From contig NZ_QOCZ01000031.1 in the NCBI RefSeq assembly GCF_018207095.1, positions 1-44,586 of the forward strand: DNA of 44,586 bases, in the 5' to 3' direction. This stretch comes from Nocardiopsis sp. MG754419 (lineage in GTDB: Bacteria; Actinomycetota; Actinomycetes; Streptosporangiales; Streptosporangiaceae). A model generated the notes under the pieces. The model was not told the DNA's origin, ran no database searches, and saw only the letters and a program-made list of their open reading frames with translations. This document shows positions 14,272 through 32,796 of the stretch, in pieces (position 1 is the stretch's first letter; every line of letters begins with the position of its first letter). The position numbers were made by a program, and so were the translations under genes.

Positions 14272-14325
14272 TCCATTCAGATTCCATCATGAAGTGACAC
14301 TGATTCCAGCGGCGCTGGCTAGCCT
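14272..14325 (+). promoter_or_regulatory. SARP-type promoter of lanM1
   Basis: Four heptamer positions spaced exactly 11 bp: TCCATTC (14272), TCCATCA (14283), GTGACAC (14294, weak) and TCCAGCG (14305). Eight bases later comes the -10-like TAGCCT (14320-14325). No -35 box is needed in SARP promoters, where the repeats replace it. The same layout precedes lanT and lanA2. Transcription would start near 14332. Confidence 0.7.
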
Positions 14326-14374
14326 CCAATTCAGCACCTGTCACCGACGGATAGAGCCACCTCCGAGGAGTACC

Positions 14375-17300
14375 GTGTCGAGGACGAATCAGCGGGATGC
14401 GGAACACGTTCAGGGTGCGCCGCCGCCCAGTGGCGGGGCGTCGCCCTGGTGGTCGGCCCTGACCCTCGAAGAACGGGGAGCGGGCCCCGAAGCCCCGCTC
14501 CGGTCGGGGGCGCCCGACTCCGGCGGCGGATCCGCCTCCGAGCGTGCGCTGCGCAAGTACGACAAGTGGCGCGCGCAGTGGCCCTTCAAGGAGGACGAGG
14601 GCCTGCTCGCCGAGCGCCTGAAGCCGCTCGGTCTGACCCCGGGCGCCCTGCCGCGCCTGATCGACGAAACGGCGCGCGACCTCCGGGACCGCTCCGATCG
14701 GACCCCGTGGTGGGTCGCGGAGCTGACGGAGCGCCTGTCCTCCGCGGACCAGGCTCGGCCCGCCGCGAAGTCCTCGCCCGCGGACACCGAACCACACGGG
14801 TTCCTCATACCGGCCGCCCCCCTGCTGCGCCACGGCCTGGAGCGGCTGCGCGAGGGCATGGCCGCGCTGGCCCCCGACTTCCCGCTTCGGATCGACATCG
14901 AAGCCGTGGAGAGCAGTCTGCTGGAGTCCCTGCACAGGGAACTGGTCCAGATCATCGCCCGGACGGCGGTTCTGGAGCTCAACGTCGCCCGTCTGGAGGG
15001 CCGCCTCACCTCGGGCAGCCCCGAGGAACGCTACGAGGAGTTCGTCGGCCAACTGGCACGTCCCGAGCGTATGCGTGAGTTTTGGAGTGAGTACCCGGTC
15101 CTCGCCAGGATCACGGCCGAAAGGGTGGACCAGTGGGTCCGCCACAACCTCGCGCTGCTGGCCGACCTGGCACAGGACTGGCCTGCGATCCGCGAACGCC
15201 TCCGGGTTCCCGAGGGGACCCGTACCCTCACTGAGGCCTCCCTCGGGCTCGGTGACCGGCACGCCGGCGGGCGCAGCGTCAGCTCGCTGCGGTTCGACTC
15301 CGGCTTCCGCCTCATCTACAAGCCCCGGCCGCTCTCCGTGGACGCGCATTTCCAGGAGCTGCTGGAGTGGACCAACGACAACGGCCAACCCACGCCCTTC
15401 CGTGTCCTCGACGTGGTGGACGCGGGCGACCACGGCTGGGTGGAGTTCGTGGAGGGCGCTCCCTGCGAGTCCGCGGAGGAGCTGCGCGACTTCTACCGAC
15501 GGCAGGGCGGGCTGCTGGCGCTTCTGCACATGCTCCATGCCGTCGACTTCCATTTCGAGAACCTCATCGCCTCCGGTCCGCACCCCGTCCTGGTCGACCT
15601 GGAGACCCTGTTCCACCCCAACCACTGGATGCTCGGCACGGGCAACGCGGCCCCCGCGAACGTCGCGATGGGCGACTCGGTCACGCAGACCGGCCTCCTG
15701 CCCCGTCGGAAGTACTTCGCCGGCGACGACCAGGACGCCGGAACCGAGACCAGCGGTCTCGGCGGTCCCTCCGGTCAGTTGACCCCCTACGCGATGCCCT
15801 ACTGGGAGGACTACGGCTCCGACGAGATGCGTCTGGACCGCAAGCGGCAGGTCATCGAGGATCCCGGTGCCAACCGTCCCACGCTGTCCGGCGGCCGGGT
15901 GAGCGCCGTCGACCACGTCGAGGACATCGTCGAAGGGTTCGACTCGACCTACCGCCTCCTGTGGCGCCACCGCGACGCACTCCTGGCTCCGGGCGGCCGC
16001 GTCTCGAACTTCTCCGAGGACCGCGTGCGCTTCATCGCGCGTCCGACCGCCACCTACGCCCTGTCTCTCGTCGAGAGCTACCACCCCGACGTGCTGCGGG
16101 ACGCGCTGGACCGTGACCGCCTGCTGGACCACCTCTGGATCCCCCGGGACCGGGACCCCGTCCGATCCGCCCTGTGCACCTCCGAACGCCGCGACCTCGA
16201 ACACAACGACGTCCCGCTGTTCCACATGCGCCCCTCCCAGCGGCACGTCTGGGACTCCGCGGAGCGGATCCACCCGGACCTGCTCGACCGCCCGATCATG
16301 GAGTCCGTGCGTGAACGCTTCCAGGAGATGGGGGAGGCGTCGCTCGCCCACCAGCTCTGGTTCATCCGCGCCTCGTTCACCACGCTGTCGGACGACGCGA
16401 CGCCCGAGACCAGCCGTCGGCTGCACGCCGAACGGCCGGCGACCGAGCGGGAGCTGGTCTCGACGGCGTCGGCCATCGGCGACCGACTGGCCCAGCTGGC
16501 CCTCGGTGACGACGACACCGTGGACTGGGTCAGTGTCAACCTCGTCAACCAGCGTTCCTGGACGCTCGGCCCGGCCGGCAACGACCTGTACTTCGGTCAG
16601 TGGGGCGTGGCGCTCGCCCTCGGCTACCTCGGTTCCCTGACCGGCGAACGGCGCCACTCCGACCTCGCGCGGCGCGTGGTCGACCACATGACGCAGCACG
16701 TGCTCGGCGATGGGGACCACGACGCCCACGACCACGGTTCGGTGCTGGCGGAGAACATCGGCGCGTTCCACGCGGGACCCGCCGCCATCTACGTCCTCTC
16801 CCACCTGGGCGTCCTGTGGGACGACCCGAAGCTGCTCGCGCGAGCGGGAGAGGTCGCGCGGATCGTGGTTCCGGGCATCGACACCGACGATCGCCACGAC
16901 ATCCTGGGCGGGTCGGCGGGGCTGCTGTGCGTACTGCTGAGCCTGTACCAGACCACCGGCGACCAGGACGTACTCCGCCACGCCATGCGCTGCGGGGACC
17001 GCCTGATCGACCAGGCCACGCCGATGCCCGACGGCCTGGCGTGGCACACGCCCCGCTTCGGTCCCGCGCCGCTGGCGGGGTTCTCCCACGGAGCCAGTGG
17101 CGTGGCCCACGCTCTGCTGAAGCTGTTCGAGGCCACGGGAAGGCCCGAGTACGCGGAGACCGCCGAACGCGCCATGGCCTACGAGCGGGGTCTCTTCTCG
17201 CCATGGCTCGGTAACTGGCCGGACCTGCGGGAGGCGCAGCAGCCCGAGGAGGTCCTGGCCCAGGACGGCCCCCCCTTCATGATCGCCTGGTGCCACGGGG

Positions 17301-17752
17301 CTCCCGGCGTGGGCCTGGCCCGTCTCAGCGCGCTGAGCGCGCGCGTGGACGAGGAGAACGCGCGAGGCGAACTGGACACGGCCGTGGAGACGACGCTGCG
17401 ACAGGTCGACCTGCGCGACGACTCCCTGTGCCACGGTTCGCTCGGCAATTTGGACTTTCTGACCGCCTCCGCCGTCGCACTCGGTCGCACGGACCTCCGC
17501 GAGCAGGTGCTCCGGTTCGCGTCCGGCCTGCTCAGCGACGCCGACGAGGACGGTTGGAAGTGCGGTATTCCCGGTGCTGTGGAAACGCCGGGGCTCATGA
17601 CTGGACTCTCGGGGATCTGTCTCGGTCTCCTGCGTGTGGCCTCACCCGACCGTGTGCCTTCCGTGCTCACACTCGCACCTCCCGGGCCGGTCGCGCGCGA
17701 GGTTCCGGCGACCCCGAGATCCGAGAGCGGGACGACGATCGTCGTCCCGTGA
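14375..17752 (+). CDS. lanM1: Class II lanthipeptide synthetase LanM (first copy)
   Basis: A 1125-residue bifunctional enzyme that phosphorylates and eliminates Ser/Thr of a precursor peptide, then closes thioether rings. The dehydratase domain (DUF4135) carries GDRHAGGR (Asp294, His296), IYKPR (Lys316), VDFHFEN (Asp391, His393, Asn396), VDLETLFH (Asp408) and FIARPTATY, the same residues that act in CylM. The LanC-like cyclase starts near residue 690 and has FSHGASGVA, WCHGAPGVGLA (Cys973) and LCHGSLGNL (Cys1019, His1020) as zinc ligands. GTG 14375 is chosen for CCGAGGAG just upstream; longer frames contain no homology. Its likely substrate, lanA1, begins 31 bases after the stop. Both active sites look complete. 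Confidence 0.96.
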   Translation: MSRTNQRDAEHVQGAPPPSGGASPWWSALTLEERGAGPEAPLRSGAPDSGGGSASERALRKYDKWRAQWPFKEDEGLLAERLKPLGLTPGALPRLIDETARDLRDRSDRTPWWVAELTERLSSADQARPAAKSSPADTEPHGFLIPAAPLLRHGLERLREGMAALAPDFPLRIDIEAVESSLLESLHRELVQIIARTAVLELNVARLEGRLTSGSPEERYEEFVGQLARPERMREFWSEYPVLARITAERVDQWVRHNLALLADLAQDWPAIRERLRVPEGTRTLTEASLGLGDRHAGGRSVSSLRFDSGFRLIYKPRPLSVDAHFQELLEWTNDNGQPTPFRVLDVVDAGDHGWVEFVEGAPCESAEELRDFYRRQGGLLALLHMLHAVDFHFENLIASGPHPVLVDLETLFHPNHWMLGTGNAAPANVAMGDSVTQTGLLPRRKYFAGDDQDAGTETSGLGGPSGQLTPYAMPYWEDYGSDEMRLDRKRQVIEDPGANRPTLSGGRVSAVDHVEDIVEGFDSTYRLLWRHRDALLAPGGRVSNFSEDRVRFIARPTATYALSLVESYHPDVLRDALDRDRLLDHLWIPRDRDPVRSALCTSERRDLEHNDVPLFHMRPSQRHVWDSAERIHPDLLDRPIMESVRERFQEMGEASLAHQLWFIRASFTTLSDDATPETSRRLHAERPATERELVSTASAIGDRLAQLALGDDDTVDWVSVNLVNQRSWTLGPAGNDLYFGQWGVALALGYLGSLTGERRHSDLARRVVDHMTQHVLGDGDHDAHDHGSVLAENIGAFHAGPAAIYVLSHLGVLWDDPKLLARAGEVARIVVPGIDTDDRHDILGGSAGLLCVLLSLYQTTGDQDVLRHAMRCGDRLIDQATPMPDGLAWHTPRFGPAPLAGFSHGASGVAHALLKLFEATGRPEYAETAERAMAYERGLFSPWLGNWPDLREAQQPEEVLAQDGPPFMIAWCHGAPGVGLARLSALSARVDEENARGELDTAVETTLRQVDLRDDSLCHGSLGNLDFLTASAVALGRTDLREQVLRFASGLLSDADEDGWKCGIPGAVETPGLMTGLSGICLGLLRVASPDRVPSVLTLAPPGPVAREVPATPRSESGTTIVVP

Positions 17753-17783
17753 ACCCCCACAGAGACGAGAGGAAGAGGCTCAG

Positions 17784-18005
17784 ATGACGAAGATCGACAT
17801 CATCCGTGCTTGGAAAGACCCGGAGTACAGGGACGGACTGACCAGTGCCCCCGCGCACCCGGCGGGCGTCATCGAGTTGCCCGACGAGGCGCTCAACGAG
17901 TCCGGCGGCGCGCAGGTCATGGAGACGGAGACCGGTTGGTCCTTCGGCTGCTGTGACTCCGTGACCCTGGACCCGGTCAGCGGCGCCTGCTTCTGGTACT
18001 GCTGA
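17784..18005 (+). CDS. lanA1: Lanthipeptide precursor LanA1
   Basis: A 73-residue precursor. The leader (1-42) has the mersacidin/lichenicidin-type signature: IIRAWKDPEYRDGL, HPAGVIELPDEAL, ending ESGG, a double-glycine site for C39 peptidases. The 31-residue core (43-73) has Cys at core positions 14, 15, 27 and 31, and Ser/Thr at 6, 8, 11, 17, 19 and 24, so up to four rings could form and at least two residues would remain dehydrated. The neighbouring cysteines 14-15 and the aromatic tail FWYC are unusual. It follows lanM1 by 31 bases (GAGAGGAAGAGG before ATG) and so shares its transcript. Confidence 0.92.
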   Translation: MTKIDIIRAWKDPEYRDGLTSAPAHPAGVIELPDEALNESGGAQVMETETGWSFGCCDSVTLDPVSGACFWYC

Positions 18006-18125
18006 TCCACCGACTCCCTTCCATCGATCGTGACGTCACCCCTCTTGCCCGGCCCCGCGCGTGAGTGACGGCACAGGCCCAATGCCTTGACAGCGGAGGG
18101 TCCCCCAAGCCCAGGGTGACCCTCC

Positions 18126-18162
18126 GAGCGGGTGGCCGCGACCGTGTCGCGGCCACCCGCTC
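18126..18162. terminator. Perfect hairpin terminator between lanA1 and the glycosyltransferase
   Basis: GAGCGGGTGGCCGCGAC (18126-18142), loop CGT, and its exact complement (18146-18162): 17 paired bases. It lies 120 bases after lanA1 and about 95 before the convergent glycosyltransferase stop, and probably ends both transcripts. The rest of 18006-18256 holds nothing else I recognise. Confidence 0.85.
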
Positions 18163-18256
18163 TTCGAGTTCGGGGGCCGAACCCCGTACGCGCCGGACTG
18201 GACGCCCAATGGCGGCAAGGGGTGGACGTCGACCGGGGCGTCCCGGCGGGAACCGC

Positions 18257-19531
18257 TCAACCGACGCGTTCGCGCACACGCCGTTCGAGCTCGCGCACCA
18301 CCTCGCTCGGGGCGGGCATCTCCGTGACGTCGCGCCGCAGCTGGTCCGCGCCCTTCGCGTACGCCGGATCCTCGAGAACCCGGCGCACAGCGTCGCGCAC
18401 ACCGTTGACCAGTTCCTCCTGCGGTTCGACGGAGACCCCCGCGCCCGCTGCCTCGAGTCGTGCGGCCCGGGCCAGGGTGTCGTAGATCTCCGGGTGGACC
18501 ACCTGCGGCACCCCGGCCGCCATGGCCGTGCAGAAGGTGCCCATGCCCCCGTGGTGTACGACGGCCGAACAGGTCGGCAGTAGGGAGCTGAACGGGACGA
18601 AGTCGACCAGGCGCACGTTGTCCGGGACGCGCGTGATCGCCCCTCGCCGTTCGTCCCCGTGGAAGGTCGCCACGATCTCCGCGTCGATGTCACCGAGTGC
18701 CTCGACGAGTCCCGGGACGTCGACGAGGTCGACGCCCAGGCGTTCGCGGACCGAGGCGCCGAGCGTGACGCAGACCCGGGGCCGCTCGGGCGGGTGCCGC
18801 AGCCACTCGGGCACGTCGGCGGCTCCGTTGAACGGCACGAACCGCATGGGCACCCTCTCGATGTCCAGGTCGTACCGGAAATGCTCCGGGAGCTGGTCCA
18901 CCGTGAAGGAGCCGGTCACCAGGTCCTCGTGGAAGTCGACGCCGAACCGGGCCGCGCGTTGGGCCACCCATGCGCCGAGGGCGTCGGGACGGTCCTCGGC
19001 GGGCTTGTGGGCCAACAGCTCCAGGTACCGCCGCCTGAACCTTCCCTTGAAGTCCATGGCCCACGTCAGGCGTCCGTGCGCGGCGCCGCAGGCCTCCGCG
19101 GCGATCGCCCCGGCGATGGACGAGGACTCCCACAGGACCAGGTCGGGCCGCCAGCGCTCGCAGTGCTCCACGAGACGGTGCAGGATCGGATCGTTGATGA
19201 GCCTGAACTCGAACCCGACCATCGAGTCGTAGTGGCCCTTGAGGTAGTCCCAGGTGAGCTCCTCGTCCGGGGCGTCACCCTTGAGGTAGAGCTGGGGTCC
19301 GTCGGAGCGCTGTCTGGCCTCCATCAGGTGCGGGCGGCGGTTGTAGTAGTCCCACAGGACGTGATCCCGCCCGACCGGGACGGCCGTCAGACCGGCCGCC
19401 CGCACGAACTCCGCCGATTCGGGGTGCCCCGCCACCTGGACCTCGTGTCCGGCGGCGATGAAGGCCCACGCGAGCGGGGTGATGAGCTTGACGTTGCTGT
19501 TCTCCGGATAGGTGACGAAAAGGACTCGCAC
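18257..19531 (-). CDS. Macrolide-type glycosyltransferase (EryCIII/DesVII-like GT1)
   Basis: A 424-residue GT-B enzyme of the family that moves TDP-deoxysugars onto polyketide aglycones. It opens with RVLFVTYPENSNVKLITPLA and a GHEVQVAGHPE block. The C-terminal nucleotide-sugar domain has VCVTLGASVRERL, VRLVDFVPFSSLLPTCSAVV, and HHGGMGTFCTAMAAGVPQVV. Length and motifs are complete. Close relatives often need a P450-like activator (DesVIII); none is visible in this window. GTG 19531 is the likely start, 39 bases after the upstream oxidoreductase stop; GGAAGG lies rather far upstream. It is the last gene of a four-gene leftward operon. A glycosyltransferase of this type in a lantibiotic cluster is unusual. 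Confidence 0.9.
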   Translation of the reverse strand: MRVLFVTYPENSNVKLITPLAWAFIAAGHEVQVAGHPESAEFVRAAGLTAVPVGRDHVLWDYYNRRPHLMEARQRSDGPQLYLKGDAPDEELTWDYLKGHYDSMVGFEFRLINDPILHRLVEHCERWRPDLVLWESSSIAGAIAAEACGAAHGRLTWAMDFKGRFRRRYLELLAHKPAEDRPDALGAWVAQRAARFGVDFHEDLVTGSFTVDQLPEHFRYDLDIERVPMRFVPFNGAADVPEWLRHPPERPRVCVTLGASVRERLGVDLVDVPGLVEALGDIDAEIVATFHGDERRGAITRVPDNVRLVDFVPFSSLLPTCSAVVHHGGMGTFCTAMAAGVPQVVHPEIYDTLARAARLEAAGAGVSVEPQEELVNGVRDAVRRVLEDPAYAKGADQLRRDVTEMPAPSEVVRELERRVRERVG

Positions 19532-19570
19532 GGGTTCTCAGACCTTCCAGACGGGGGACGCGCGCCCGAT

Positions 19571-20824
19571 TCACCCCAGTCCCGGGTGGGCGCTGAGGAT
19601 GTGTTCGGTGAGGTCGTGGCTGGTGCCGCCCTTGAAGTAGGCCATGTGCTCGGCCAGCACGACGTCGAGTTCCTTTTCCAGGTGGACGGCGAGTTGGAAC
19701 CCCGCGAAGGGGTCCATGAAGTCCAGCGGGAGCGGGTCGGGCTCGTGTTCGTCGAGCCCGACGATCATGTCCTTCATCGCCAGGCAGTGCCGCCGTACGA
19801 GGGCGTGCAGTCGCCTCTTCCCCAACGGGCTCGGGCCCCAGTGCTCCGCCAGGGCTCCGACCACGTCCTCGACGTCCCGCAGCGCGGCGTCGGTTCCCTC
19901 GGACAGCAGGACACCGCACGGGTTGAGGACGATCTCGTCCACCCCTGCCTCGTAGTAGCGCGCGATCTCCCGCGCGATCTCCTTCGGCGTTCCGGTGGCG
20001 AACACGTCGAAGTTGACCAGTGCCCGCGCACCGGAGACGGGGTCGGCCGGATCGATCGCCAGCCCCGCTGACCGGAGCATGGCCGCGTAGTGCGGCTGAG
20101 ACAGGTGCAGTCCCGCGCCCCGGTAGGCGATCTCGTAGGGGTCCCGGCCCTCGCGTGCCACCGCGAAGTGCTTGACGGTGACCAGGCGCGGGCGCTCCGG
20201 GCGTCCGGCCCGCTCCGCACCCTGGTCGAGGGCGGGGACGATGGTCTCCTGAAGGTAGTTCGACGGGGTCATCCAAGTGATGGCGCTGTCGGCCACCTCA
20301 CCGGCGACCTGTGCCATTGCCTTCCTGAGCACTCCCGCGCCCACCTCGACCGGGGGATGCTCCATCTTCTGCAAGGCCGTGGGGCCCATCGAGAGGTAGC
20401 GCCCGTCCACGGACACCCTCTCGCCGTCGAGCAGGCCGCGGACCGCGCCGAGGTACTCGCGGATCGCCGTCAGCGGACTCGCGTACGGCTCGCCCCGCGA
20501 CATGGCCACGAACTCGGGCGCGCCCAGTCCGTACCCGGCGACGTAGGGACGTCCGGTCAGGACCGCCGCGCCCCTGGCCTGGAGGGCCGCTTCCAGAGGG
20601 CTCCGCAGCGGGGTCAGTGTGACCGAGGTCCCGCCGTGGACCCCGTGGCCGGCGGCGGCCAGGGACACGTGGATCTGGTGCGGGTCCAGCGCGAGGGTCT
20701 GCCCCAGCCACAGGCGGCGCAGGCCCAGCTTCCGCACGCTGGCGGCGAAAGTGAGCGGCTCCTCCAGTGATGGCGCGCTCGTGGGGAGGATGAGGGATAC
20801 TCCCCGGTCCCGGATCGTCGTCAA
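19571..20824 (-). CDS. Luciferase-like flavin/F420-dependent oxidoreductase
   Basis: About 417 residues with the TIM-barrel LLM fold: LTFAASVRKLGLRRLWLGQ, HVSLAAAGHGVHGGTSVTLT, GLGAPEFVAMSRG, TAIREYLGAVRGLLDGE, and EVADSAITWMTPSNYL. The N-terminus is read from TTG 20824, which overlaps the SARP stop (TTGA), so the two are translationally coupled. Family members use FMNH2 or F420H2. In lanthipeptide clusters such proteins (LanJ-C, e.g. LxmJ of lexapeptide) reduce dehydroalanine to D-alanine, so a similar role here is plausible but not shown. The extra ~70 C-terminal residues (DPFAGFQLAVHLEKELDVVL, then FKGGTSHDLTEHI) exceed the usual ~340. Confidence 0.85.
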   Translation of the reverse strand: MTTIRDRGVSLILPTSAPSLEEPLTFAASVRKLGLRRLWLGQTLALDPHQIHVSLAAAGHGVHGGTSVTLTPLRSPLEAALQARGAAVLTGRPYVAGYGLGAPEFVAMSRGEPYASPLTAIREYLGAVRGLLDGERVSVDGRYLSMGPTALQKMEHPPVEVGAGVLRKAMAQVAGEVADSAITWMTPSNYLQETIVPALDQGAERAGRPERPRLVTVKHFAVAREGRDPYEIAYRGAGLHLSQPHYAAMLRSAGLAIDPADPVSGARALVNFDVFATGTPKEIAREIARYYEAGVDEIVLNPCGVLLSEGTDAALRDVEDVVGALAEHWGPSPLGKRRLHALVRRHCLAMKDMIVGLDEHEPDPLPLDFMDPFAGFQLAVHLEKELDVVLAEHMAYFKGGTSHDLTEHILSAHPGLG

Positions 20825-21636
20825 TTCCCCGTCTCCGTCCTGGACATCGCCGCCACCGGGAACTGCGGCACGGGCTCCGAGCGCAGGATCGCCTCGTAGA
20901 TCTGCTGGAGATTGCCCCCCGGCCCGGTACCGGTCTCCTCGGCCAACCGCGTCCGCAGTCCGTGGAAGACCGCGAGGGCCTCGGCCTGCCGGTTGCATTC
21001 GTACAAGGCGGTCATCAGCAGTTCGGCCATGGGCTCACTGAGCGGGTTCAGCTCGACGTACTGCCGCAGTTCCGGGATCACGTCGCGGTGGCGGCCCAGC
21101 AGGAAGTCGAGTTCGATGCGCCGCTCGATCGCCATCAGCCGCTGCTCGACCAGGTTCAGGCGCATGGACTGCGCCAGGGGGCCGACCAGGCCCACGAGCG
21201 GCTCCTCCCCCCACATTCCCAGCGCCTCGCTGACGAGTTTGTGCGCCAGCTCGAGCTCACCCGACGCCTTGGCCTCCTGGCTCCGGCGGATCAGGCTGTT
21301 GCACCTGTTGCGGTCGAGGGAGTCGGGGTCGATCTGAAGGACGTACCCCTCCCTTTTCCGAGCGATGGGCAGTCCGACCCAGTCGGGCTCCCCGCAGGGC
21401 GCCAGTTTGCGCAGTCGATAGACGTAGGGCGGAATGATGCGGCTTCCGCTCTTGGGAGGGTCGTCTCCCCACACCTCCCGCAGCAGGCGGTCCACCGAAA
21501 CCGTCTGGTTATAACTGCGTAGCAGGGAAAGCATCACGGATTGTTGCCGAAGGGGTCCCAGGGGCAGTTGAGAGGACCCGACTTGAACGCGGAAGGCACC
21601 AAGGATTGAGAAGTACAGCTCGCCTTCTCCAGTCAC
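20821..21636 (-). CDS. SARP-family transcriptional activator
   Basis: A 271-residue Streptomyces antibiotic regulatory protein. It has an N-terminal OmpR-type winged helix (FSILGAFRVQ, LPLGPLRQQSVMLSLL, VDRLLREVWGDDPP, PPYVYRLRK) and a bacterial transcriptional activation domain (LDRNRCNSLIRRSQEAKASG, EEPLVGL, LVEQRLMAIERRIELDFLLG, LNPLSEPMAELLMTALY). There is no NB-ARC ATPase extension, so it is of the small ActII-4/RedD size. The GTG start overlaps the ABC transporter stop (GTGA). Its expected targets, heptamers spaced 11 bp, are found before lanM1, lanT and lanA2, so it is probably the pathway activator. Confidence 0.93.
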   Translation of the reverse strand: MTGEGELYFSILGAFRVQVGSSQLPLGPLRQQSVMLSLLRSYNQTVSVDRLLREVWGDDPPKSGSRIIPPYVYRLRKLAPCGEPDWVGLPIARKREGYVLQIDPDSLDRNRCNSLIRRSQEAKASGELELAHKLVSEALGMWGEEPLVGLVGPLAQSMRLNLVEQRLMAIERRIELDFLLGRHRDVIPELRQYVELNPLSEPMAELLMTALYECNRQAEALAVFHGLRTRLAEETGTGPGGNLQQIYEAILRSEPVPQFPVAAMSRTETGN

Positions 21637-23513
21637 TCCACACTCCGATCCAATCCCATTGTGGACAGGGAACCCATTTGATATTTCACCTTGGGTGGTG
21701 AATCATCCTCAGCGGGTTCCGGGTCTCCAATGTTCATGATCTGCCGATTCACCAGATCGCGGTACTGGTGGTTTGATGCCACCAGCTCACGGTGAGTTCC
21801 CCTCCCGATGACCCGTCCCTCCTCCAGAATCAGGATCTGGTCCGCGTGTATCACCGTGGACAGGCGGTGGGCGACCACGATGAGGGTGCGGCGCTCCGCG
21901 GCCGTGAAGACCGCCTGACGCATCGCGGCCTCGTTGGCCGCGTCCAGCTGGCTCGTGGGCTCGTCCAGGATGAGCACGGGCGCGTCGGCGAGCAGGCCTC
22001 GGGCGATCGCCAGCCTCTGGCGCTGGCCGCCGGACAGGCGTACGCCGTCGTCCCCCACCTCCGCATCCAAGCCGTCCGGCGTGCGCTGGAGGATCTCACT
22101 GAGGTTCACGTCCTCCAGAACTTCGAGCAGGCGCGCGTCCGTGGCGCCGGGCGCCGCGACGAGCAGGTTCTCCCTGATGGTTCCGGACATGACCGGAGCC
22201 TCCTGCTCGACGTAGGCGAACTTCTCCCGGACCTGGGCGTGCGTGAGGTCTCCGATGTCGGTCGAGTCGACCCTGATACTGCCGGAGTCGGGGTCGTAGA
22301 AGCGTTCCACCAGGGCCAGGATCGTGGACTTGCCCGCTCCGGACGGCCCCACGAGCGCGGTCAGGGTCCCCTTCTCCACGGTGAAGCTCACCTCGTTCAG
22401 AACCGGACCGTCGCCGTAGTCGAACGTCACCGCGTCGAATTCGAGCGCCGCCGAGGAGGGCGTCCGATCCGGCCCGGGTGCGGGGGGCGTCTTTGATCGA
22501 ACCGCCGTGCCGCCCTCGGGCGGGATGCGGAGGATCTCTCGGATGCGGTCCCACGCGCCGAGTCCGGCCATGATCTGCGTGTAGGCCCCGATCGCCTGCA
22601 CCAGCGGGTTCACCAGCAGGAACAGGTAGAGGACGAACGCCACGAGGTCACTCACGGAGATCGCGCCGGAAGCGACCCGGGCGCCGCCGACCCCGAGGAC
22701 CAGGAGGAAGGCGGTCTGGGTGCCGAGCGCGCTCAGGGGCGCGATGAGCGCCCGCCACCGGGCCAGCCGGAGCCCCGCCTCGTAGGCGCGGAGCGTACGC
22801 TGCCCGACCTCCGCGGTCTCCCGGGCCTCCGCCCGGGCCGCCCGAATCGTGCGCACGGCGGAGAACGCGCGCTCGACCGACGCGGTGATCTCACCGACAC
22901 GGGCCTGGGCCTGCTCGGAGAGGGGGCGCATCTTTCGCGCGGCCAGGACCGCGGTCGACAGCCCGAACGCGAGACCGACCAACGTGGCCAGGAACAGCGT
23001 GGGGTCGACCAGGAGCATGGCCGTGGCCGCTCCCAGGGCCATCAGCGCCCCCGCCACGAGCTCGAAGACACCCGAGGTCACGAGCGCGCGCAACATGCTC
23101 GTGTCGGCACTGACCCGGGAGAGCAGGTCGCCGGTCCGACGCCGGTCGAACTCCGCGATGGGCAGGTGCATCAGTCGGTGGGTCAGGGCGTCGCGCAGCC
23201 GACGGACGACGGACTCGCCGGTCCGTTGCAGCAGGTAGTCACGTACCCCGTTGCCGATCGACGCGCTCAGCAGCACGATGACCAGGACCGTGACCAGGAG
23301 ACCCACCGGCCTCGATTCGGTGATCGCGTCGATGACCCCGGAGACCAGGAGCGGCTGCGCCAGGGAGAGTCCGGTCGCGACCAGGGACAGCGAGCCCGCC
23401 GCCACGAGTACCCCGGTGTGGCCTTTCAGGTAGGAGAGTAGGTGACTCACCCGCGAGCCGTCGGCGTCCCCGCCCTCCGGTACACCTCTTTCCGCTGAAT
23501 TTTCTGAGTACAT
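21633..23513 (-). CDS. ABC exporter, fused membrane and ATPase domains, no peptidase domain
   Basis: A 626-residue type IV (MsbA/LmrA-like) half transporter. Six membrane segments (about 35-300) are followed by an ATPase domain: Walker A VGPSGAGKSTILALVERFYD, Q-loop YVEQEAPVMSGTIRENLL, signature LSGGQRQRLAIARG, Walker B LILDEPTS, and switch His in VVAHRLS. It lacks a C39 domain, so it cannot remove leaders itself. It may export a tailored product or confer self-resistance. ATG 23513 is chosen because AGGTGATC precedes it; longer versions are not supported. First gene of the leftward operon. Confidence 0.92.
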   Translation of the reverse strand: MYSENSAERGVPEGGDADGSRVSHLLSYLKGHTGVLVAAGSLSLVATGLSLAQPLLVSGVIDAITESRPVGLLVTVLVIVLLSASIGNGVRDYLLQRTGESVVRRLRDALTHRLMHLPIAEFDRRRTGDLLSRVSADTSMLRALVTSGVFELVAGALMALGAATAMLLVDPTLFLATLVGLAFGLSTAVLAARKMRPLSEQAQARVGEITASVERAFSAVRTIRAARAEARETAEVGQRTLRAYEAGLRLARWRALIAPLSALGTQTAFLLVLGVGGARVASGAISVSDLVAFVLYLFLLVNPLVQAIGAYTQIMAGLGAWDRIREILRIPPEGGTAVRSKTPPAPGPDRTPSSAALEFDAVTFDYGDGPVLNEVSFTVEKGTLTALVGPSGAGKSTILALVERFYDPDSGSIRVDSTDIGDLTHAQVREKFAYVEQEAPVMSGTIRENLLVAAPGATDARLLEVLEDVNLSEILQRTPDGLDAEVGDDGVRLSGGQRQRLAIARGLLADAPVLILDEPTSQLDAANEAAMRQAVFTAAERRTLIVVAHRLSTVIHADQILILEEGRVIGRGTHRELVASNHQYRDLVNRQIMNIGDPEPAEDDSPPKVKYQMGSLSTMGLDRSVE

Positions 23514-24840
23514 TCGTGGGGGATCACCTAACGCCTTATCAGGACAACGGTTTGCATGATTTATCAGGAATGCGGGCTTGCTCAAAACCACGGCAAACCT
23601 AGGACATCAAACCTCCTGGCACAACCCCTTATCGTGCCCCGACTCCTGTGTGCGCGGCACCTCCCCGATGTGGAAAATGGAATTCCGATGACCGCGGGAT
23701 GACTTTTCGCTGACCGGCCGGGCGGACCGCAGAGGCGTTCGGCTCTGACCCAGGTCCCCGCCTGCGCGAACCCAGGGATGGCCGACCGGCGCGGCGGTTG
23801 CGGCACCTCCGGATCGCCGGCGTGGAGAAGTGTCGCGCGCACTCGGCGGATCAACCGCATCCGGTTCCGGCTCTTCTGGGCGTACGGAGACGAGAGCGAG
23901 GTCTTCACGGCCGCCCGTGGCCGCAACCGGCCATCCTCGAAACCGTCGAACAGTGGACCCCGGACAACGGAATGACCGCGTGCCCCCGCGCCCGGAACGC
24001 GTGCCGGATGGACACACTCCGTGCACTTACTCTGCCGCGAGGAACGTCATCCCCCATGGCGCCCCTCCGTATGCGTGCTCTCCGGGCGCCGACCGTTCGC
24101 GATGATATGTCGACTCCCTCCCCTGCCTGGTGAGAGCTCCTTCCACATACGGGAGCAGCGATCATGCGATCATCGATCGCCGCCCCGGCGGAGAATCGTG
24201 CCGGCGGCGCCGAGACCACCGTTCGGGTGACCCTTCGCTGGTCACGCGATTTGGGCCTTCTCACCGTCGGTGATCGAGCGGGTAATGGGCGGCGTGGTTT
24301 TCTTCGCCCGCACCCCACCCGGAGCCTCTGCTTGCGTCCGCATTCGACCCGATAAAGACTGATTTTCGGGACGGGACTCCATTCGCAACGGGGGGTGGCG
24401 GATGGCGTGGCCTCCGGAGCGCCGTGCCGTCCGCGTGCCGACCGGGTGGGCGCCGCGGGGCATCCGTCCACCCGACGGGCCGCTCTCCATGTCGAGGATC
24501 ATGGCCTTGAACTGCGGATATATGGCCCTTCGAGGGCAGAGGCTGATCGCGGCCCGCGCTGAGTCGGCGCCCGCGTCCGGCCCGACCGCGGGCCGCGCGG
24601 GAAGGGCGGAGCAGCGGATCCGAGACCGGGGTCATCCCTGCTCAGACATGATGACGGGCCGCCGGGTGAGTGGCGGGGGTTCGCACGGGCGGACCTTTGG
24701 CGCAGCCGTCCGGAATAGCTTTTCTCGTCCGAGCGTATGGTCCAGTCGGGTCGCGGCCGTTATCGTGGTGCGGCGCGAGTCCGTGCTGTAGTAACTGCGG
24801 CTCCCGCATTTTTGTCGTCCGCCGGAGACGGAGGTATTTA
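23514..24840. other. 1.3-kb divergent intergenic region with direct repeats
   Basis: No gene is recognisable between the two divergent transport operons. Near the left edge the nine bases TTATCAGGA occur twice (23536-23544 and 23561-23569). On the minus strand, three GGTTTG/GGTTTT boxes follow in 23581-23620. On that strand TTGAGC and a TAAATC-type box could form the operon promoter, but the match is weak. On the plus strand no SARP-type series was found before the ATPase gene. The middle part (23700-24700) may be decayed coding DNA but gives no identifiable protein. Confidence 0.4.
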
Positions 24841-26731: not shown

Positions 26732-26742
26732 ACCGACGTACC

Positions 26743-26796
26743 GTCATCGGTACTCCACCGCCGTGCCATCGGCTTTCCACGGCGTCCTTCTAGCGT
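26743..26796 (+). promoter_or_regulatory. SARP-type promoter of lanT-lanM2
   Basis: Four heptamers at an exact 11-bp period: GTCATCG (26743), TCCACCG (26754), GCCATCG (26765) and TCCACGG (26776). The -10-like TAGCGT (26791-26796) follows after 8 bp. This is the clearest copy in the window. Expected start of transcription is near 26803, giving a 35-base leader before lanT. Confidence 0.82.
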
Positions 26797-26837
26797 CTGG
26801 GACGTCCTACGAGACAGCCGACGCGATTGTGGGGGCC

Positions 26838-29003
26838 ATGGCTCGACAGCGAGGTCCCGCCAGGGTAAGAGCCGTACAGCAGTCGGGCATGTCCGAGTGC
26901 GGGGCCGCCTGCCTCGCCATGGTGCTGACCGCGCATGGCAGGCACACCGCCCTGACCGAGAGCCGGGACCTGCTGGGTATCGGGCGGGACGGCTCCAGCA
27001 TGCGCAGTATCGCCAGGATTGCCCGAAGCCTCGGCATGGAGGTCCGGGCACTGCGGCTGGGCGTGGAGCACCTGGGCCAGATCCGGCTCCCGGCCATCGC
27101 GCACTGGGGCAACGCGCACTACACGGTGGTCGAACGGGTGAGCCACGGCCGGGTCCACCTGGTCGACCCCGTCTCGGGTCGGCAGAGACTCACCTTGGAA
27201 GAGGCCGGGGAGGTGTTCTCCGGCGTCGTCCTGGAGATGGTGCCGGGGCCCGGGTTCCAGAAGGTCCGGCGCCGTTCCGGCGACGGGGCGTTGGGCGCCG
27301 TCCTGGACGGTGGCCGGGGACTCCTGGGCGCGGCGGTGGGCGCCTCGCTCCTGCTGCACCTCATGGTGTTCGGGGCGCTGTGGATCGCACTCGGGTCGCT
27401 CCCCGCACTGCTGGAGGGCGCCTTTCCCGCGGCCGCGTTCCTGTCCGGGCTGCTGGCCCTGGGCGCCCTGGTCAGCGGTGTGGTCCGGCGCCGACTCCTC
27501 ATCGCCTTCTGTATACGCGTGCAGACCCACCTGTCGGAACGGTTGCTCCGGCGCGTGTTTCGCCTCCCGCTGACCTATTTCGAGGCGAACTCCGTCACGG
27601 AGGTCCTGGGCCGGGTCTCCGCCGGTGTGACCCTGCGTCAGGTCCTGCCTCCACGCGGGATCACTACGGTGCTGGACTGCGGACTCGGCGCGGTCTACCT
27701 CGTCGTTCTGTCGGTCGTGGCCCCGCTGTTCATCCTGCCCGCCGTGGCGGTGCTCCTCCTCGGCTGGGCCTTCTTCATGGTCACCAAGCGGGTGCTTCAG
27801 GAGAACGCCAAACGCGCCCTCGGCGACCAGGCGGGGATCCAGGGAAGGGTGCACCACGCCCTGTTGGGCGTCGAGACGCTCAAGGGTATGGGCCGGGAGG
27901 AGGGTCTGCTGTCGGACCTGGACGACCTCCTGGCACGGCAGGAGGTCACCGCGGAACGGCAGCTCCGCGGGGAGGGGTTCGTCGAGGCCGGGTTCTCCCT
28001 GCTCCGGGGCCTGGGCGCCCTGGGCACGGTGCTCGTCGCGTCGGCGTCGGTGCTCTTCGGGGGCGTCGCCCCCGAGGCGGCCGGGGTCTACTGCGCGGTT
28101 GCCCTGCTGGTGACGGAGGCAGCGGGTCGTCTGACCACGTACCTGCGCCAGTTCCAGATGGTGGACCGCTGTCTCGCACAGATCCGCGGAGTACTCGCCG
28201 AGCTCCCGGAGCAGCCGGAGCTCCCCCCGGACACGGGCGGCGCGGTCTCCGGGCGACCGGGTCCCGGGGAGGTCGAGTTCGAGGACGTCTCCTTCCGGTA
28301 CTCGGACAACAGCTCCTGGAGCGTCCGGAACGTGAGCGTTCGCGTCCCCGCGGGGGCCAAGGTCGGCCTGGTGGGCGCGACGGGATCGGGAAAGAGCACG
28401 TTCGCCAGGCTGCTCCTCGGCCTGCACCGGCCCACACAGGGGACGGTTCGTTTCGACGGCCGCTCCCTCGCGGAGCTGGACCTTCGCGAGGCACGGCTCA
28501 ACTTCGGGTTCGTGCCACAGGAATCCAGGATCTTCAGCGGGAACATCAGCGGCAATATCGCTCTGGGCCGCCCGGAGGCCTCCGCGAGCTCGATCGAGGA
28601 GGCCGCCCGCCGGGCGCAGATCCACGAGGACATCGTCGCCATGCCGCTGGGTTACGACACCCCGGTGTCCGAGGAGGGGCTGGGGCTGTCCGGCGGGCAG
28701 CTCCAGCGCCTGGCGCTCGCCCGGGCCCTGCTCGGGGACCCTTCCCTGCTCGTGCTCGACGAGGCCACCAGCCACCTGGACACGTTGACCGAGCAGCGCG
28801 TCGAACGGGAACTGGCCACGCTGTCGTGCACCCGCCTGGTCATCGCCCACCGCATGAACACCGTGCGAGACGCGGACCTCATCATCGTCCTGGACACGGG
28901 GAGGGTCGTGGAGATCGGCACGCACCACGAACTCCTCGCCCTGGACGGCGTCTACGCCGCGCTCGCGGGACCGGTTCCCGAACCGGTACGGAACACGCTA
29001 TGA
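26838..29003 (+). CDS. lanT: Peptidase-containing ABC exporter LanT (C39 family)
   Basis: A 721-residue transporter that cuts off double-glycine leaders and exports the product. The N-terminal C39 peptidase has QQSGMSECGAACLAMVL (Cys21), HWGNAHYTVVE (His94) and VDPVSG (Asp110). A six-helix membrane domain (about 155-440) and an ATPase follow: Walker A GATGSGKSTFARLLLGL, signature LSGGQLQRLALARAL, Walker B LLVLDEATSHLD, switch VIAHRMNT. The ATG start at 26838 places the Cys motif at the normal distance from the N-terminus; GTG 26829 is an alternative. Both precursors end their leaders in GG, so one LanT could serve both. lanM2 follows 45 bases later. Confidence 0.95.
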   Translation: MARQRGPARVRAVQQSGMSECGAACLAMVLTAHGRHTALTESRDLLGIGRDGSSMRSIARIARSLGMEVRALRLGVEHLGQIRLPAIAHWGNAHYTVVERVSHGRVHLVDPVSGRQRLTLEEAGEVFSGVVLEMVPGPGFQKVRRRSGDGALGAVLDGGRGLLGAAVGASLLLHLMVFGALWIALGSLPALLEGAFPAAAFLSGLLALGALVSGVVRRRLLIAFCIRVQTHLSERLLRRVFRLPLTYFEANSVTEVLGRVSAGVTLRQVLPPRGITTVLDCGLGAVYLVVLSVVAPLFILPAVAVLLLGWAFFMVTKRVLQENAKRALGDQAGIQGRVHHALLGVETLKGMGREEGLLSDLDDLLARQEVTAERQLRGEGFVEAGFSLLRGLGALGTVLVASASVLFGGVAPEAAGVYCAVALLVTEAAGRLTTYLRQFQMVDRCLAQIRGVLAELPEQPELPPDTGGAVSGRPGPGEVEFEDVSFRYSDNSSWSVRNVSVRVPAGAKVGLVGATGSGKSTFARLLLGLHRPTQGTVRFDGRSLAELDLREARLNFGFVPQESRIFSGNISGNIALGRPEASASSIEEAARRAQIHEDIVAMPLGYDTPVSEEGLGLSGGQLQRLALARALLGDPSLLVLDEATSHLDTLTEQRVERELATLSCTRLVIAHRMNTVRDADLIIVLDTGRVVEIGTHHELLALDGVYAALAGPVPEPVRNTL

Positions 29004-29048
29004 CACACGCCCGTCACTGGGGCAGAGAGCAGAAATGAGCGATGCTTC

Positions 29049-32000
29049 GTGAGCAATGAAGAGTTCGACCCGACCGACCCGCGGTGGTTCCTGGCCCACT
29101 CTCTCCAGGAACGGATCTCCGCGTCGAGCCCTCCGGCCGAGACGGACGTCGCGACCGGGAAGGCACGGATCGACCTGTGGCGCCAGGAACGGCTGAGCTT
29201 TCTTCGCGACGAGGGGAACTTCGCCGACTACGCCGCCCGCAAGGGCACGGACGCGGACGGCTTGGCGGCCGTGCTGGGGGAGAGCCCGGTCAGTGTGCGC
29301 GAGCGGCTCCCGCACGTCCCCGACTTCGTCGAGTACGTTCGGCGGGCGCTCGACTATTCCGGCGGGCACGACGGCGGGGAGCGCTTCGGTATGCGCTTCT
29401 GTTCCGTCTTCACGCCCTTCATCGACCAGGCGGTGGACGACGTCCGGAAACGGATCCTGGCGTTGGACGCCGGCGACTCGGGTCTGGACACCGAGCGGCT
29501 CGCCGCGTGTCTGACCGATCCGCCGCTCGCTGGGGTCGACATGTTGGTCGGCCGAGCCCTGGTGCTGGAGGTCAACATCGCCCGGGTCGAGGGGCGCCTG
29601 AAGCGGGACTCACCGCACGAGCGCTTCCACGAGTTCATGGAGGCGCTGTCGACGAGGGAGGGGCTTCTCCCCTTCCTCCTCGACTACCCCGTGCTCACCA
29701 AGGACCTGGTGCTCCTGCTCGACAACTGGACTCGCGCGCGCGTGGAGATCGCCGAACGGTTGATCGCCGACCTCCCGCGCCTGCGTGAACGCCTGGGCGC
29801 CCCCGACGATCTGGGGCAGGTCCGCGAGATCAGCTCCGGGGAGGGGGATTCCCACGGCGGTGGGCGCTCCGTGGCGCGTGTGACCTTTGAGAACGGTCAG
29901 CACGTCATGTACAAGCCCCGTTCCCTCGGTACGGACGTGCACTTCCAGGACGTGCTGCGCTGGTTCAACGAACGCGGGCTCGAACCCTCCCTGCGCACAC
30001 TCTGGGTCGAGGACCGGGGCGAGTACGGATGGAGCGAGTACGCGCCCTCCGAGGCGTGCGAGGACCGGGCGGCCCTGGAGCGCTTCTACACCCGGTTGGG
30101 GTCGTACCTGGCGATCCTGCACGTGCTGGTCGCCTCCGACATGCACTTCGAGAACATGATCGCCTCCGGTGAGCACCCGGTCATGGTCGATCTGGAGGCG
30201 CTGTTCCACGTCACCATCAGGGACGCCTCGGTGAGCACCCTCAACGCCACCTTGGGCGCGTCCGATCTCATGCACTCCTCCGTCCTCGGCGTCGGACTGC
30301 TTCCCCAGCCGAGCATCCAGGTGGACGACGGCGAGGTCGTGTGGAGCGACTTCGGAGGTGTCTCGGATACCAGCGCGCAGATGACCTCGAAGAAGGTGGC
30401 CGGCTGGGACCGTTGGGGCACCGACGAGATCCGCATTGAGCGCCGGCGGATCGCGCAGAGCCCGGCACAGAACGTGCCGACGGTGGAGACCGAGAAGGCG
30501 AACGCCTTCGAGAGCCGCGACTCGATCCTGGCCGGTTACCGTAGCGCCTACCGGACCCTCCAGGACCACCGCGATGCCTTCCTCTCCGAGGGTGGCCCGC
30601 TCCGTGCCTTCGCCGACGACGACATCCGGCTGATCCTGCGCCCGACGCAGCTCTACTACACGCTCCTGACCGAGAGCCGGCACCCGGACTACCAACAGGA
30701 CGCGGCGGACCAGGACAACTTCCTGGACGCTCTGTGGGCGGGCCATCCCGACCTCGACCAGCGTGAGGCCGTGATCGCCTCGGAGGTCGCCCAGATGGGG
30801 CAGGGTGACATCCCGATCTTCCACACCACGCCGGGGCAGAGGGACGTTTTCGCGCAGGGCGGTCGGATCGCCCGCGACATGCTCGAGTCCAGTGGACTCG
30901 ATCGGGCCACGGCCCGGATCGAGAACATGTCCGAGGCGCACATGGAGCAGCAGAGCTGGTTCATCGACGCCGCGCTGGCCGCCCAGGTCATGGGTGATGC
31001 CAGCCACTCCTCTTCTCACCGGCTCGACTCGGTTCCGTTCCCGCACCGGCCCGCGGACGGAGGCGAGCTGCTGGAGCAGGCCGCGAGGATCGGTGACCGC
31101 CTGGTGGAGAGCGCGATCCAGCAGGACGGGCGCATCACCTGGTTGGGGCTCAACCTGGTCAGGGAAGAGGTGTGGCAGGTCAACCCCGCCCAGACCGACC
31201 TCTTCAACGGGTTGAGCGGTATCGGCCTCTTCCTCGGCTACCTCGGCGCGGCCACGGGTGAGGACAGGTTCCGTTCGGCGGCCGAGAGAACCGCCGAGAT
31301 GATCACCAGCGAAATCGAGAGCCTGAGCGACAAGGGCGATATGGCCGACTACTACGCGGCCGTGAGCGGTATCGGTGCCTTCGGAGTCCTAGGTGGTTCG
31401 GTCTACGCCCTGAGCCACCTCGGTCACCTCTGGAAGGAAGGCGCACTACTCGACCACGCCGCCTCCGTCGTGCCCTACATGGCCGAGCGCGTCGCGGAGG
31501 ACACCGCGCTCGACGTGATCAGCGGCAGCGCCGGCGGGCTCTTCTCTCTGTTGTCGCTGCACGCGGCGGCGCCGGACCCGGCGGTCTTGGACGTGGCCGA
31601 GCGCATGGCGGCGCGCCTGTCGGAGACCGCGGTGCCGTCACAGAGCGGTCAGAGCTGGGTGAGCTCGATCAGCGCCCGGCCCCTGGCCGGTTTCTCCCAC
31701 GGGGCGTCGGGCATCGCGACGGCTCTGGCGCGGCTCGACCGCGCACGGGGAACGTCCGAGCACCGGGACCTGGTGCACGCGGCCTTCGACTTCGAGCGGG
31801 CGTTGTTCGACGAGGACACCGGGAATTGGCCCGACCTCCGGGACGACACCCCGCGCAACAGCGCGATGGTGGCCTGGTGTCACGGCGCCACGGGGGTGGG
31901 GCTGGCCCGGGCGGACGTCCTGGACGGTGGGGGATCGTCGGACCCGAACGTCCGTCAGGATCTGGAGAAGGCGTTGCGACGCGTCCGCCGGACCGCGCTG

Positions 32001-32312
32001 GGAGGTGAGTCCAAGCATCGCGGGGTGGGCAACCACAGCATCTGCCACGGGGACCTGGGCAACCTGGAACTCCTGCAGCTGGCCGCGACCACCGAGGAGG
32101 AGCGGGAAGGCGTGCGCCTGCTGGCCGCGGACGTGCTGGCTCAGCGGGAGGGCCTCGGCTGGCAGTGCGGGGTTCCTCTCGGAATCGAGACCCCCGGTCT
32201 GATGCCGGGCCTGTCCGGTATCGGCTACACGCTCCTGAAGCTCGCCGATCCGGCGTCGGTGCCCTCCGTCCTCCTGCTGGGGGCGCCGCTCCGCGACGCC
32301 TCCGGGAAGTGA
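29049..32312 (+). CDS. lanM2: Class II lanthipeptide synthetase LanM (second copy)
   Basis: A 1087-residue LanM, clearly diverged from LanM1. Dehydratase residues are present: GDSHGGGR (Asp267, His269), MYKPR (Lys289), SDMHFEN (Asp364, His366, Asn369), VDLEALFH, and LILRPTQLYY. The cyclase domain starts near 674, with FSHGASGIA, WCHGATGVGLA (Cys944) and ICHGDLGNLE (Cys999, His1000). The GTG at 29049 gives MSNEEFDPTDPRWF; the ribosome binding site is weak, so coupling to lanT translation is likely. The adjacent precursor lanA2 is its probable substrate, because two-peptide lantibiotics usually have one LanM per peptide. Confidence 0.96.
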   Translation: MSNEEFDPTDPRWFLAHSLQERISASSPPAETDVATGKARIDLWRQERLSFLRDEGNFADYAARKGTDADGLAAVLGESPVSVRERLPHVPDFVEYVRRALDYSGGHDGGERFGMRFCSVFTPFIDQAVDDVRKRILALDAGDSGLDTERLAACLTDPPLAGVDMLVGRALVLEVNIARVEGRLKRDSPHERFHEFMEALSTREGLLPFLLDYPVLTKDLVLLLDNWTRARVEIAERLIADLPRLRERLGAPDDLGQVREISSGEGDSHGGGRSVARVTFENGQHVMYKPRSLGTDVHFQDVLRWFNERGLEPSLRTLWVEDRGEYGWSEYAPSEACEDRAALERFYTRLGSYLAILHVLVASDMHFENMIASGEHPVMVDLEALFHVTIRDASVSTLNATLGASDLMHSSVLGVGLLPQPSIQVDDGEVVWSDFGGVSDTSAQMTSKKVAGWDRWGTDEIRIERRRIAQSPAQNVPTVETEKANAFESRDSILAGYRSAYRTLQDHRDAFLSEGGPLRAFADDDIRLILRPTQLYYTLLTESRHPDYQQDAADQDNFLDALWAGHPDLDQREAVIASEVAQMGQGDIPIFHTTPGQRDVFAQGGRIARDMLESSGLDRATARIENMSEAHMEQQSWFIDAALAAQVMGDASHSSSHRLDSVPFPHRPADGGELLEQAARIGDRLVESAIQQDGRITWLGLNLVREEVWQVNPAQTDLFNGLSGIGLFLGYLGAATGEDRFRSAAERTAEMITSEIESLSDKGDMADYYAAVSGIGAFGVLGGSVYALSHLGHLWKEGALLDHAASVVPYMAERVAEDTALDVISGSAGGLFSLLSLHAAAPDPAVLDVAERMAARLSETAVPSQSGQSWVSSISARPLAGFSHGASGIATALARLDRARGTSEHRDLVHAAFDFERALFDEDTGNWPDLRDDTPRNSAMVAWCHGATGVGLARADVLDGGGSSDPNVRQDLEKALRRVRRTALGGESKHRGVGNHSICHGDLGNLELLQLAATTEEEREGVRLLAADVLAQREGLGWQCGVPLGIETPGLMPGLSGIGYTLLKLADPASVPSVLLLGAPLRDASGK

Positions 32313-32321
32313 TCCCGGTGT

Positions 32322-32364
32322 TCCATCGTGATGTCATCGGCCTTCCACAAGGAGACAATAAGCG
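32322..32364 (+). promoter_or_regulatory. SARP-type promoter of lanA2
   Basis: Three heptamers 11 bp apart: TCCATCG (32322), GTCATCG (32333, identical to one before lanT) and TCCACAA (32344). The -10-like TAAGCG (32359-32364) follows after 8 bp. It lies in the 125-base gap after lanM2, so the precursor has its own promoter in addition to read-through. A TAAAAT at 32370-32375 is an alternative -10 box. Confidence 0.72.
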
Positions 32365-32437
32365 TGGGATAAAATCGGAGATGTTAAGGCAATTGGGCTC
32401 CGGAAAAACAGATAGTGACAACCGAGGAGACCGTGCA

Positions 32438-32775: not shown

Positions 32776-32796
32776 ACCATCCATCACTGATAGCGA
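32776..32796 (+). promoter_or_regulatory. Possible fourth SARP-type promoter
   Basis: ACCATCC (32776-32782), 8 bp, then TAGCGA (32791-32796) repeat the geometry of the three lan promoters. The next heptamer upstream (GTCTGTG at 32765) matches poorly, so this copy is tentative. It would drive the small membrane-peptide gene at 32873. Confidence 0.4.

Follow-up and report, generated by a model that had tools for sequence, protein, structure and literature searches.

Putative SARP operators before the lan units of a two-peptide class II lanthipeptide gene cluster in Nocardiopsis

How might the separate transcription units of a lanthipeptide gene cluster be switched on together? The question is raised by contig NZ_QOCZ01000031.1 of Nocardiopsis sp. 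MG754419, a stretch of 44,586 bases from a 6.4-Mb draft genome that we analysed whole and refer to as the window. It carries two LanM synthetases (TIGR03897), two precursors of the mersacidin/lichenicidin type (TIGR03898), one C39 exporter (PF03412) and a SARP regulator, and thus has the gene content of a class II lanthipeptide cluster with two peptides, the joint action of which is a candidate property. We found arrays of direct heptamers before the three lan units, lanM1-lanA1, lanT-lanM2 and lanA2, and a further array before the operon that appears to contain the SARP gene. The reading that we favour, at a probability of roughly 0.8, is that the lan arrays are SARP operators at which the SARP of the cluster binds and switches on the lan units.

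Heptamer arrays in the window

A sequence-only reading of the window had described heptamers at an 11-bp period, an N8 gap and -10-like hexamers before the three lan units, and all of these are present in the sequence where it had placed them (Table 1). Its consensus near K-Y-C-A-Y-C-G also holds for the lan arrays. Direct repeats at this period form four arrays in the window, and the 3′ repeat lies 8 bp from the -10 hexamer at lanT (TAGCGT), lanM1 (TAGCCT) and lanA2 (TAAGCG). The -10 element of lanA2 is ambiguous, since TAAGCG lacks the final T and an in-phase alternative, TAAAAT (32370-32375), follows at N19, that is 8+11. The lanM1 array is the weakest of the three; GTGA-type units like its third one recur in arrays of relatives (GTGAACA, GTGATCA).

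These arrays were compared with the rest of the window by a leave-one-promoter-out weight matrix for the heptamers alone, trained on two lan promoters and tested on the third over 89,116 positions and 200 shuffles. The last three units of lanT ranked third and were matched in one shuffle, and lanA2 also ranked third and was matched in none. In a reverse test the matrix was trained on 18 arrays taken from other genomes and on nothing from the window; this test is supportive rather than independent, because the 18 arrays had been found with the window's own matrix. They are a selection that leaves out near copies (L133, L136, L146, L155, L084, L086, L087, L091, L041, L042, L044 and L046, and also L113 and L134). 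By heptamers, the array before the SARP operon took ranks 1 and 2 (score 26.6), followed by lanT at 3 (20.3), lanA2 at 4 (15.7) and lanM1 at 14; in 100 one-strand shuffles the highest score was 19.0 and the 95th percentile 14.4. With a -10 term added, the top seven of 89,084 rows all came from the four array sites of the window, the SARP-operon array ranking 1, lanA2 2 and lanM1 5.

As a background we used 397 kb of other stretches of the same genome (792,240 positions). When the external matrix was combined with the -10 term, two positions scored as high as lanM1 and lanT, both of them without TANNNT, one as high as lanA2 and none as high as the SARP-operon array. With the same matrix for heptamers alone, 39 positions equalled the last three units of lanT, one its first three units, two lanA2 and none the SARP-operon array. 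When the window matrix was used together with the -10 term, no position equalled the three lan arrays. For the presence of four arrays in the window, a rough Poisson estimate gives 9e-5 at a rate of 2 per 792,240 and 5e-3 at triple that rate, with cut-offs chosen post hoc. Neither this background nor a whole-genome scan with the three-heptamer consensus showed the equal density at unrelated genes that would have spoken against the sequence-only reading. On both strands the three-heptamer consensus matched 117 times at up to three mismatches versus 37 for the reversed pattern; at zero or one mismatch it occurred at three places, and at up to two mismatches four of the 15 places listed fell in the window, at three array sites. 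The proposal of SARP-type operators stands for lanT-lanM2 and lanA2, is less sure for lanM1-lanA1, and fails for a fourth, weaker copy at 32776, before a small membrane gene, which is not beyond chance: with the external matrix it ranked 585 by heptamers and 95 with the -10 term, and 4678 and 486 background positions, respectively, were as good.

The same reading had found neither transport operon preceded by a site of this kind and had suggested separate control of resistance and production. For the exporter-SARP operon this was wrong, as the matrix trained on the three lan promoters revealed, out of sample, a four-heptamer array on the minus strand (23714-23675), 161 bp before the exporter start and absent from both training sets. 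It has no -10 element at N8, and we therefore call it a SARP-type array and not a canonical operator-promoter. No array was found among the top-listed matches before the second transport operon, the DrrA-like ABC operon at 24841, as had been stated. Since the array precedes an operon encoding both an ABC exporter and the SARP, transport control may not be separate. Autoregulation of the SARP through this array, of either sign, is plausible; at L049, the sequence TTCATCG-N4-TTCATCG-N8-TAGCGT lies about 390 bp ahead of the likely start of a related SARP. A sigma-70 promoter chosen by eye, TTGTGC-N17-TAGGTT (23624-23596), failed the promoter scanner. The exporter operon and the DrrA-like operon are separated by about 1.3 kb (23514-24840) with no clear gene in the GC-by-phase profile; no protein search was made there.

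We also scanned 13 other lan stretches of the same genus (L071-L083). With the window matrix for heptamers, L078:16637 and L079:15327 scored 18.0 and 17.8, against 18.7 for the SARP-operon array; by eye they have TTCC-type first units and no -10 element at N8. A generic search of these stretches for three similar units followed by N8-TANNNT gave four matches, and the reversed control also gave four, so that the GATAGSG-type arrays at L078 9873, L079 8478 and L080 14948, which lie 267-366 bp from a SARP, are a lead only. They are perhaps another SARP code; the nearest SARP has the helix TQVQICVSRLR in L078 and L079, and in L080 the helix was not recovered.

The SARP and its relatives

The gene at 20821, taken for a SARP in the sequence-only reading, indeed matches PF03704 (121.3 bits, cut-off 22.1) and PF00486 (26.7 bits, cut-off 26.2), with an N-terminal OmpR-type winged helix followed by the BTAD domain. 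Its best PDB matches are AfsR structures, and the AfsR and FevR family models match it below their whole-protein cut-offs. The recognition helix is SGSRIIPPYVYRLR, and the stretch recovered by the helix pattern is PPYVYRLR, of the type P-x-Y-V. In the available text on the AfsR complex, each SARP protomer sits on one repeat and SARP engages sigma region 4, the repeats are 11 or 22 bp apart with the last one 8 bp from the -10 element, and Arg92 contacts T-38 while Thr88 contacts the base pair at -36 (PMC10936776). By our own count, T-38 and -36 correspond to the first and third bases of the TTCAGC unit. Aligned with AfsR, the window SARP has the same arginine (Arg74) and, in place of the threonine, Pro70 (numbering by our own count). 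In the four arrays, T or G occupies the first position of each of the 15 units, and these two bases share the acceptor that the arginine would read.

The lan promoters had no orthologous ones to align, and we therefore compared relatives of the SARP; no close relative of lanM2 was confirmed in the searched genome contigs, the best match in 60 relatives, lanM1 itself aside, being 36%. The same kind of heptamer array recurs beside near relatives of the SARP. The nearest SARP, among the 60 relatives as well as among 345 genomes of the order, is that of G038 (45%), which has TTCAGCG/ACCACCG/TTCATCG and N8-TAGCGT about 2 kb away, found on heptamers alone. A glycoside hydrolase family 16 match starts just downstream of it, in a frame that differs from the first open frame. 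In a set of 48 SARP loci with 1.5-kb flanks, which includes the window's own L001 and was scored with a -10 term at N8, seven loci of near relatives, from two genera (L042, L043, L044, L046, L049, L050 and L051) scored 12.3-23.6, L041 scored 9.7 and no other locus exceeded 11.5. The reversed sequences reached at most 12.3, the same score as the weakest of the seven.

A second set comprised 80 named SARP loci with flanks of up to 10 kb, scanned at a site cut-off of 13; the matrix had a -10 term, and no sequence other than the three promoters of the window had gone into its training. Sites of at least 13 were present in 26 of 32 loci with a P-x-Y-V helix versus 3 of 48 others, and sites with TANNNT in 18 of 32 (10 TAGCGT, 5 TACCGT, 3 TAGCCT) versus none of 48, where both the P-x-Y-V split and the cut-off were picked after helices and scores had been seen and loci of one genus are not independent. 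The three exceptions carry the AfsR-like helix RTYASRLR. The reversed control gave sites in four of the 80 loci, two of them among the 32. The two sets overlap (L094/G253, L107/G274, L121/G294 and L132/G276 are the same genomes), the default match end was used for loci missing from the coordinate tables, and L047 was excluded from the alignments owing to a stop codon in its range. Site placement is similar within groups: in three Actinomadura the site is at the end of the SARP gene, in five Amycolatopsis about 5.2 kb off, and in one Streptomyces group, where it faces the SARP, about 4 kb off. In Streptomyces-type genomes an array with N8-TAGCGT recurs at a distance of about 4 kb from a P-x-Y-V SARP (L102 13938, minus strand; similar in L089, L092, L093, L096, L101, L104, L105 and L115), with scores of 10.3-26.6; that of L102 precedes a gene whose product, judged by eye, resembles a small secreted protein.

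In a tree, the window SARP falls, itself as a long branch, within a 36-row branch of P-x-Y-V-type relatives (support 99/90); the SARPs of the window and of G038 are both long branches and their pairing is unsure. The site label, for which L041 was counted as a site at 9.7 and L002 on the strength of L070, changes seven times on the tree, compared with a mean of 26.9 after shuffling and no shuffle of 500 as low. A broader reading is that P-x-Y-V SARPs form a class with its own operator code, [GT][TC]CA[TCA]CG units at 11 bp, then N8 and often TAGCGT, which several actinobacterial families would have kept and which would be readable from the helix. This class would have been recruited here to a two-peptide lanthipeptide, and through a further, off-promoter array the exporter and the dose of the SARP itself would enter a feedback loop. 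We regard this as tentative, at somewhat less than even odds. If the link between helix motif and heptamer is true, SARP targets could become predictable from the regulator sequence.

Rival readings and cluster context

That the cluster SARP acts on the lan promoters is well supported by sequence. Protomers of the small SARP would probably line up on the direct heptamers, one to each helical turn, and with the last unit 8 bp before the -10 element the SARP would recruit RNA polymerase. In this way lanT-lanM2, lanA2 and, from a weaker site, lanM1-lanA1 would be switched on jointly. Through the array before the exporter-SARP-oxidoreductase-glycosyltransferase operon the SARP probably acts on its own operon as well, by activation, repression or titration.

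Several observations weigh against this reading. The -10 hexamer of lanA2 is imperfect. The lanM1 heptamers alone prove nothing, as they ranked 11 and were matched in 45 of 200 shuffles in the leave-one-out test, and 42 background positions equal them with the external matrix, itself not fully independent of the window. The SARP-operon array is followed after N8 by GGGGAG, is equalled by two background positions with the window matrix and the -10 term, and lies in a region (23480-24860) in which the promoter scan found no sigma-70-like promoter. Among the relatives, G038, the closest, has no site within 1.5 kb of its SARP (score 2.8), 8 of the 26 P-x-Y-V sites are without TANNNT, no LanM gene was detected in the 80 named loci (up to 10 kb on each side), and the N8 spacing is built into the relative-locus scores because these hold the -10 term at N8. 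The heptamer is not private to the class of the window SARP, since AfsR-type loci also carry TTCATCG/TTTATCG units, and seven other BTAD proteins of the genome are possible binders. Finally, what the sequence shows is the anatomy, placement and statistics of the arrays and their recurrence beside the nearest SARP relatives; from these we infer binding, activation, start sites, operon structure and autoregulation.

The rival that survives best holds that only the lanT and lanA2 arrays are real, those of lanM1 and the SARP operon being chance and lanM1-lanA1 being driven otherwise. The lanM1 heptamers lie within the shuffle range and the SARP-operon array lacks a -10 element at N8, as this rival would expect; however, lanM1 has TAGCCT at exactly N8, and with the external matrix the SARP-operon array came first, at 26.6 versus 19.0 for the best shuffle, and above all 792,240 background positions. 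We consider this rival unlikely, at about one chance in four. Less probable still, and in our view improbable, is that the arrays, although SARP-type operators, respond chiefly to some other regulator encoded in the genome, for example a large SARP of the AfsR kind, rather than to the cluster SARP. The seven other BTAD proteins would provide candidates, and AfsR-type loci show GTTCATCG/GTTTATCG units followed by a CAnnnT hexamer, but the motif tracks the P-x-Y-V helix in the named loci, with and without TANNNT; a weak point of this argument is that the helix stretch was recovered in two of eight BTAD loci of the genome itself (PPYVYRLR and LQVYAHRLR), leaving six untyped. A chance pattern of GC-rich intergenic DNA without any regulator would fit the loose matches, which are common (117 against 37), yet it is highly implausible, as two of the three genome matches at zero or one mismatch lie inside the lanT array and the shuffle, background and cross-genome tests oppose chance for lanT and lanA2.

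The exporter, SARP, oxidoreductase and glycosyltransferase genes look like one minus-strand operon, beginning with the exporter and probably ending with the glycosyltransferase. The SARP start overlaps the exporter stop in GTGA, and a TTGA overlap with the SARP stop, seen by eye, is a possible start of the oxidoreductase gene. This F420-type enzyme may reduce dehydroamino acids in the peptides. An RmlA-type glucose-1-phosphate thymidylyltransferase gene (12852-13970, minus strand; TIGR01207 above cut-off) lies divergent to lanM1, and together with the activator-dependent glycosyltransferase (TIGR04516) it makes a glycosylated lanthipeptide conceivable. An open reading frame of 55 aa after lanA2 (32874-33038, plus strand) resembles a small membrane protein, had no NCBIfam match and is a possible immunity peptide.

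Table 1. Putative operator-promoters, arrays and genes of the lanthipeptide cluster in the window
Feature	Coordinates	Strand	Description
lanM1-lanA1 operator-promoter	14272..14325	+	TCCATTC/TCCATCA/(GTGACAC)/TCCAGCG (14272-14311), N8, TAGCCT (14320-14325)
lanM1	14375..17752	+	class II lanthionine synthetase; PF13575 + PF05147; TIGR03897 918 bits
lanA1	17784..18005	+	mersacidin/lichenicidin-family precursor, 73 aa; TIGR03898 56.2 bits, cut-off 23.5
Glycosyltransferase	18257..19531	-	activator-dependent family; TIGR04516 483 bits, cut-off 440
Oxidoreductase	19571..20824	-	LLM class (luciferase-like, F420-type); PF00296; NCBIfam F420 LLM matches below cut-off
SARP regulator	20821..21636	-	271 aa, winged helix + BTAD; Pfam
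ABC exporter	21633..23513	-	Pfam ABC_membrane + ABC_tran; MsbA-like NCBIfam matches below cut-off
Array missed by the sequence-only reading	23675..23714	-	GTCAGCG/GTCATCC/GTCATCG/TCCATTT, 11-bp period; matrix scan
lanT-lanM2 operator-promoter	26743..26796	+	GTCATCG/TCCACCG/GCCATCG/TCCACGG, 11-bp period (26743-26782), N8, TAGCGT (26791-26796)
lanT	26838..29003	+	C39-peptidase ABC exporter; PF03412 + PF00005
lanM2	29049..32312	+	second class II lanthionine synthetase; PF13575 + PF05147; TIGR03897 842 bits
lanA2 operator-promoter	32322..32364	+	TCCATCG/GTCATCG/TCCACAA (32322-32350), N8, TAAGCG (32359-32364)
lanA2	32438..32674	+	mersacidin/lichenicidin-family precursor, 78 aa; TIGR03898 57.1 bits, cut-off 23.5

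Comparison with known systems

Among the open-licence papers listed on SARPs and lanthipeptides, no title concerns this cluster. The available text of PMC10663231, PMC12224297 and PMC12692060 yielded, for the terms searched, no rule that leads from helix to heptamer, which is not proof of absence. The closest parallels that we can draw are with individual SARP systems, which are compared here as far as the available parts of the cited papers describe them.

At the CinR1/cinorf7AMX promoter of Streptomyces cinnamoneus, control of a class II lanthipeptide likewise lies with a small cluster-situated SARP; the -10 element TAGTGT is preceded by three direct repeats with a spacing of about 11 nt, and the activated operon contains a precursor and a LanM gene; the cinorf7 transcript drops 1800-fold without cinR1 (PMC5408092). 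Cinnamycin has one precursor, one LanM and one described operator (PMC5408092), whereas the window has two LanA, two LanM and three to four arrays, one of them at the SARP operon; the likeness drawn here is one of architecture. The kyamicin SARP activates both the kyamicin and the duramycin clusters, for which putative sites have been shown (PMC6974636).

AfsR on the afsS promoter shares the 11-bp direct repeats, the last one 8 bp from the -10 element, and the conserved arginine for the first base, and its upstream repeat overlaps TTCAGC. It differs in the helix RTYASRLR, which has Thr where the window SARP has Pro, and in the -10 element CACTGT (PMC10936776). The PapR2 motif GTCAGSS is likewise a TCA-centred heptamer with 4-bp spacers, but has G at position 5, where the 15 units of the window, counted by hand, have T in nine, C in four and G in two (PMC7040171). 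PimR provides a precedent for an operator lying clear of the -35 element, and PieR one for a SARP binding upstream of its own gene, pieR; both differ from the window in their products and are likened to it by operator placement (PMC10972967).

Overall our analysis points to a switch of known type in a cluster that is new, as the SARP grammar is known from AfsR and SARP control of a lanthipeptide has been published for cinnamycin; less to be expected were the correspondence between helix and heptamer and the array away from a promoter. The analysis names a likely switch and its landing sites for a lanthipeptide cluster without a close relative in the collections searched, and the cluster might therefore be turned on by expressing one small gene.

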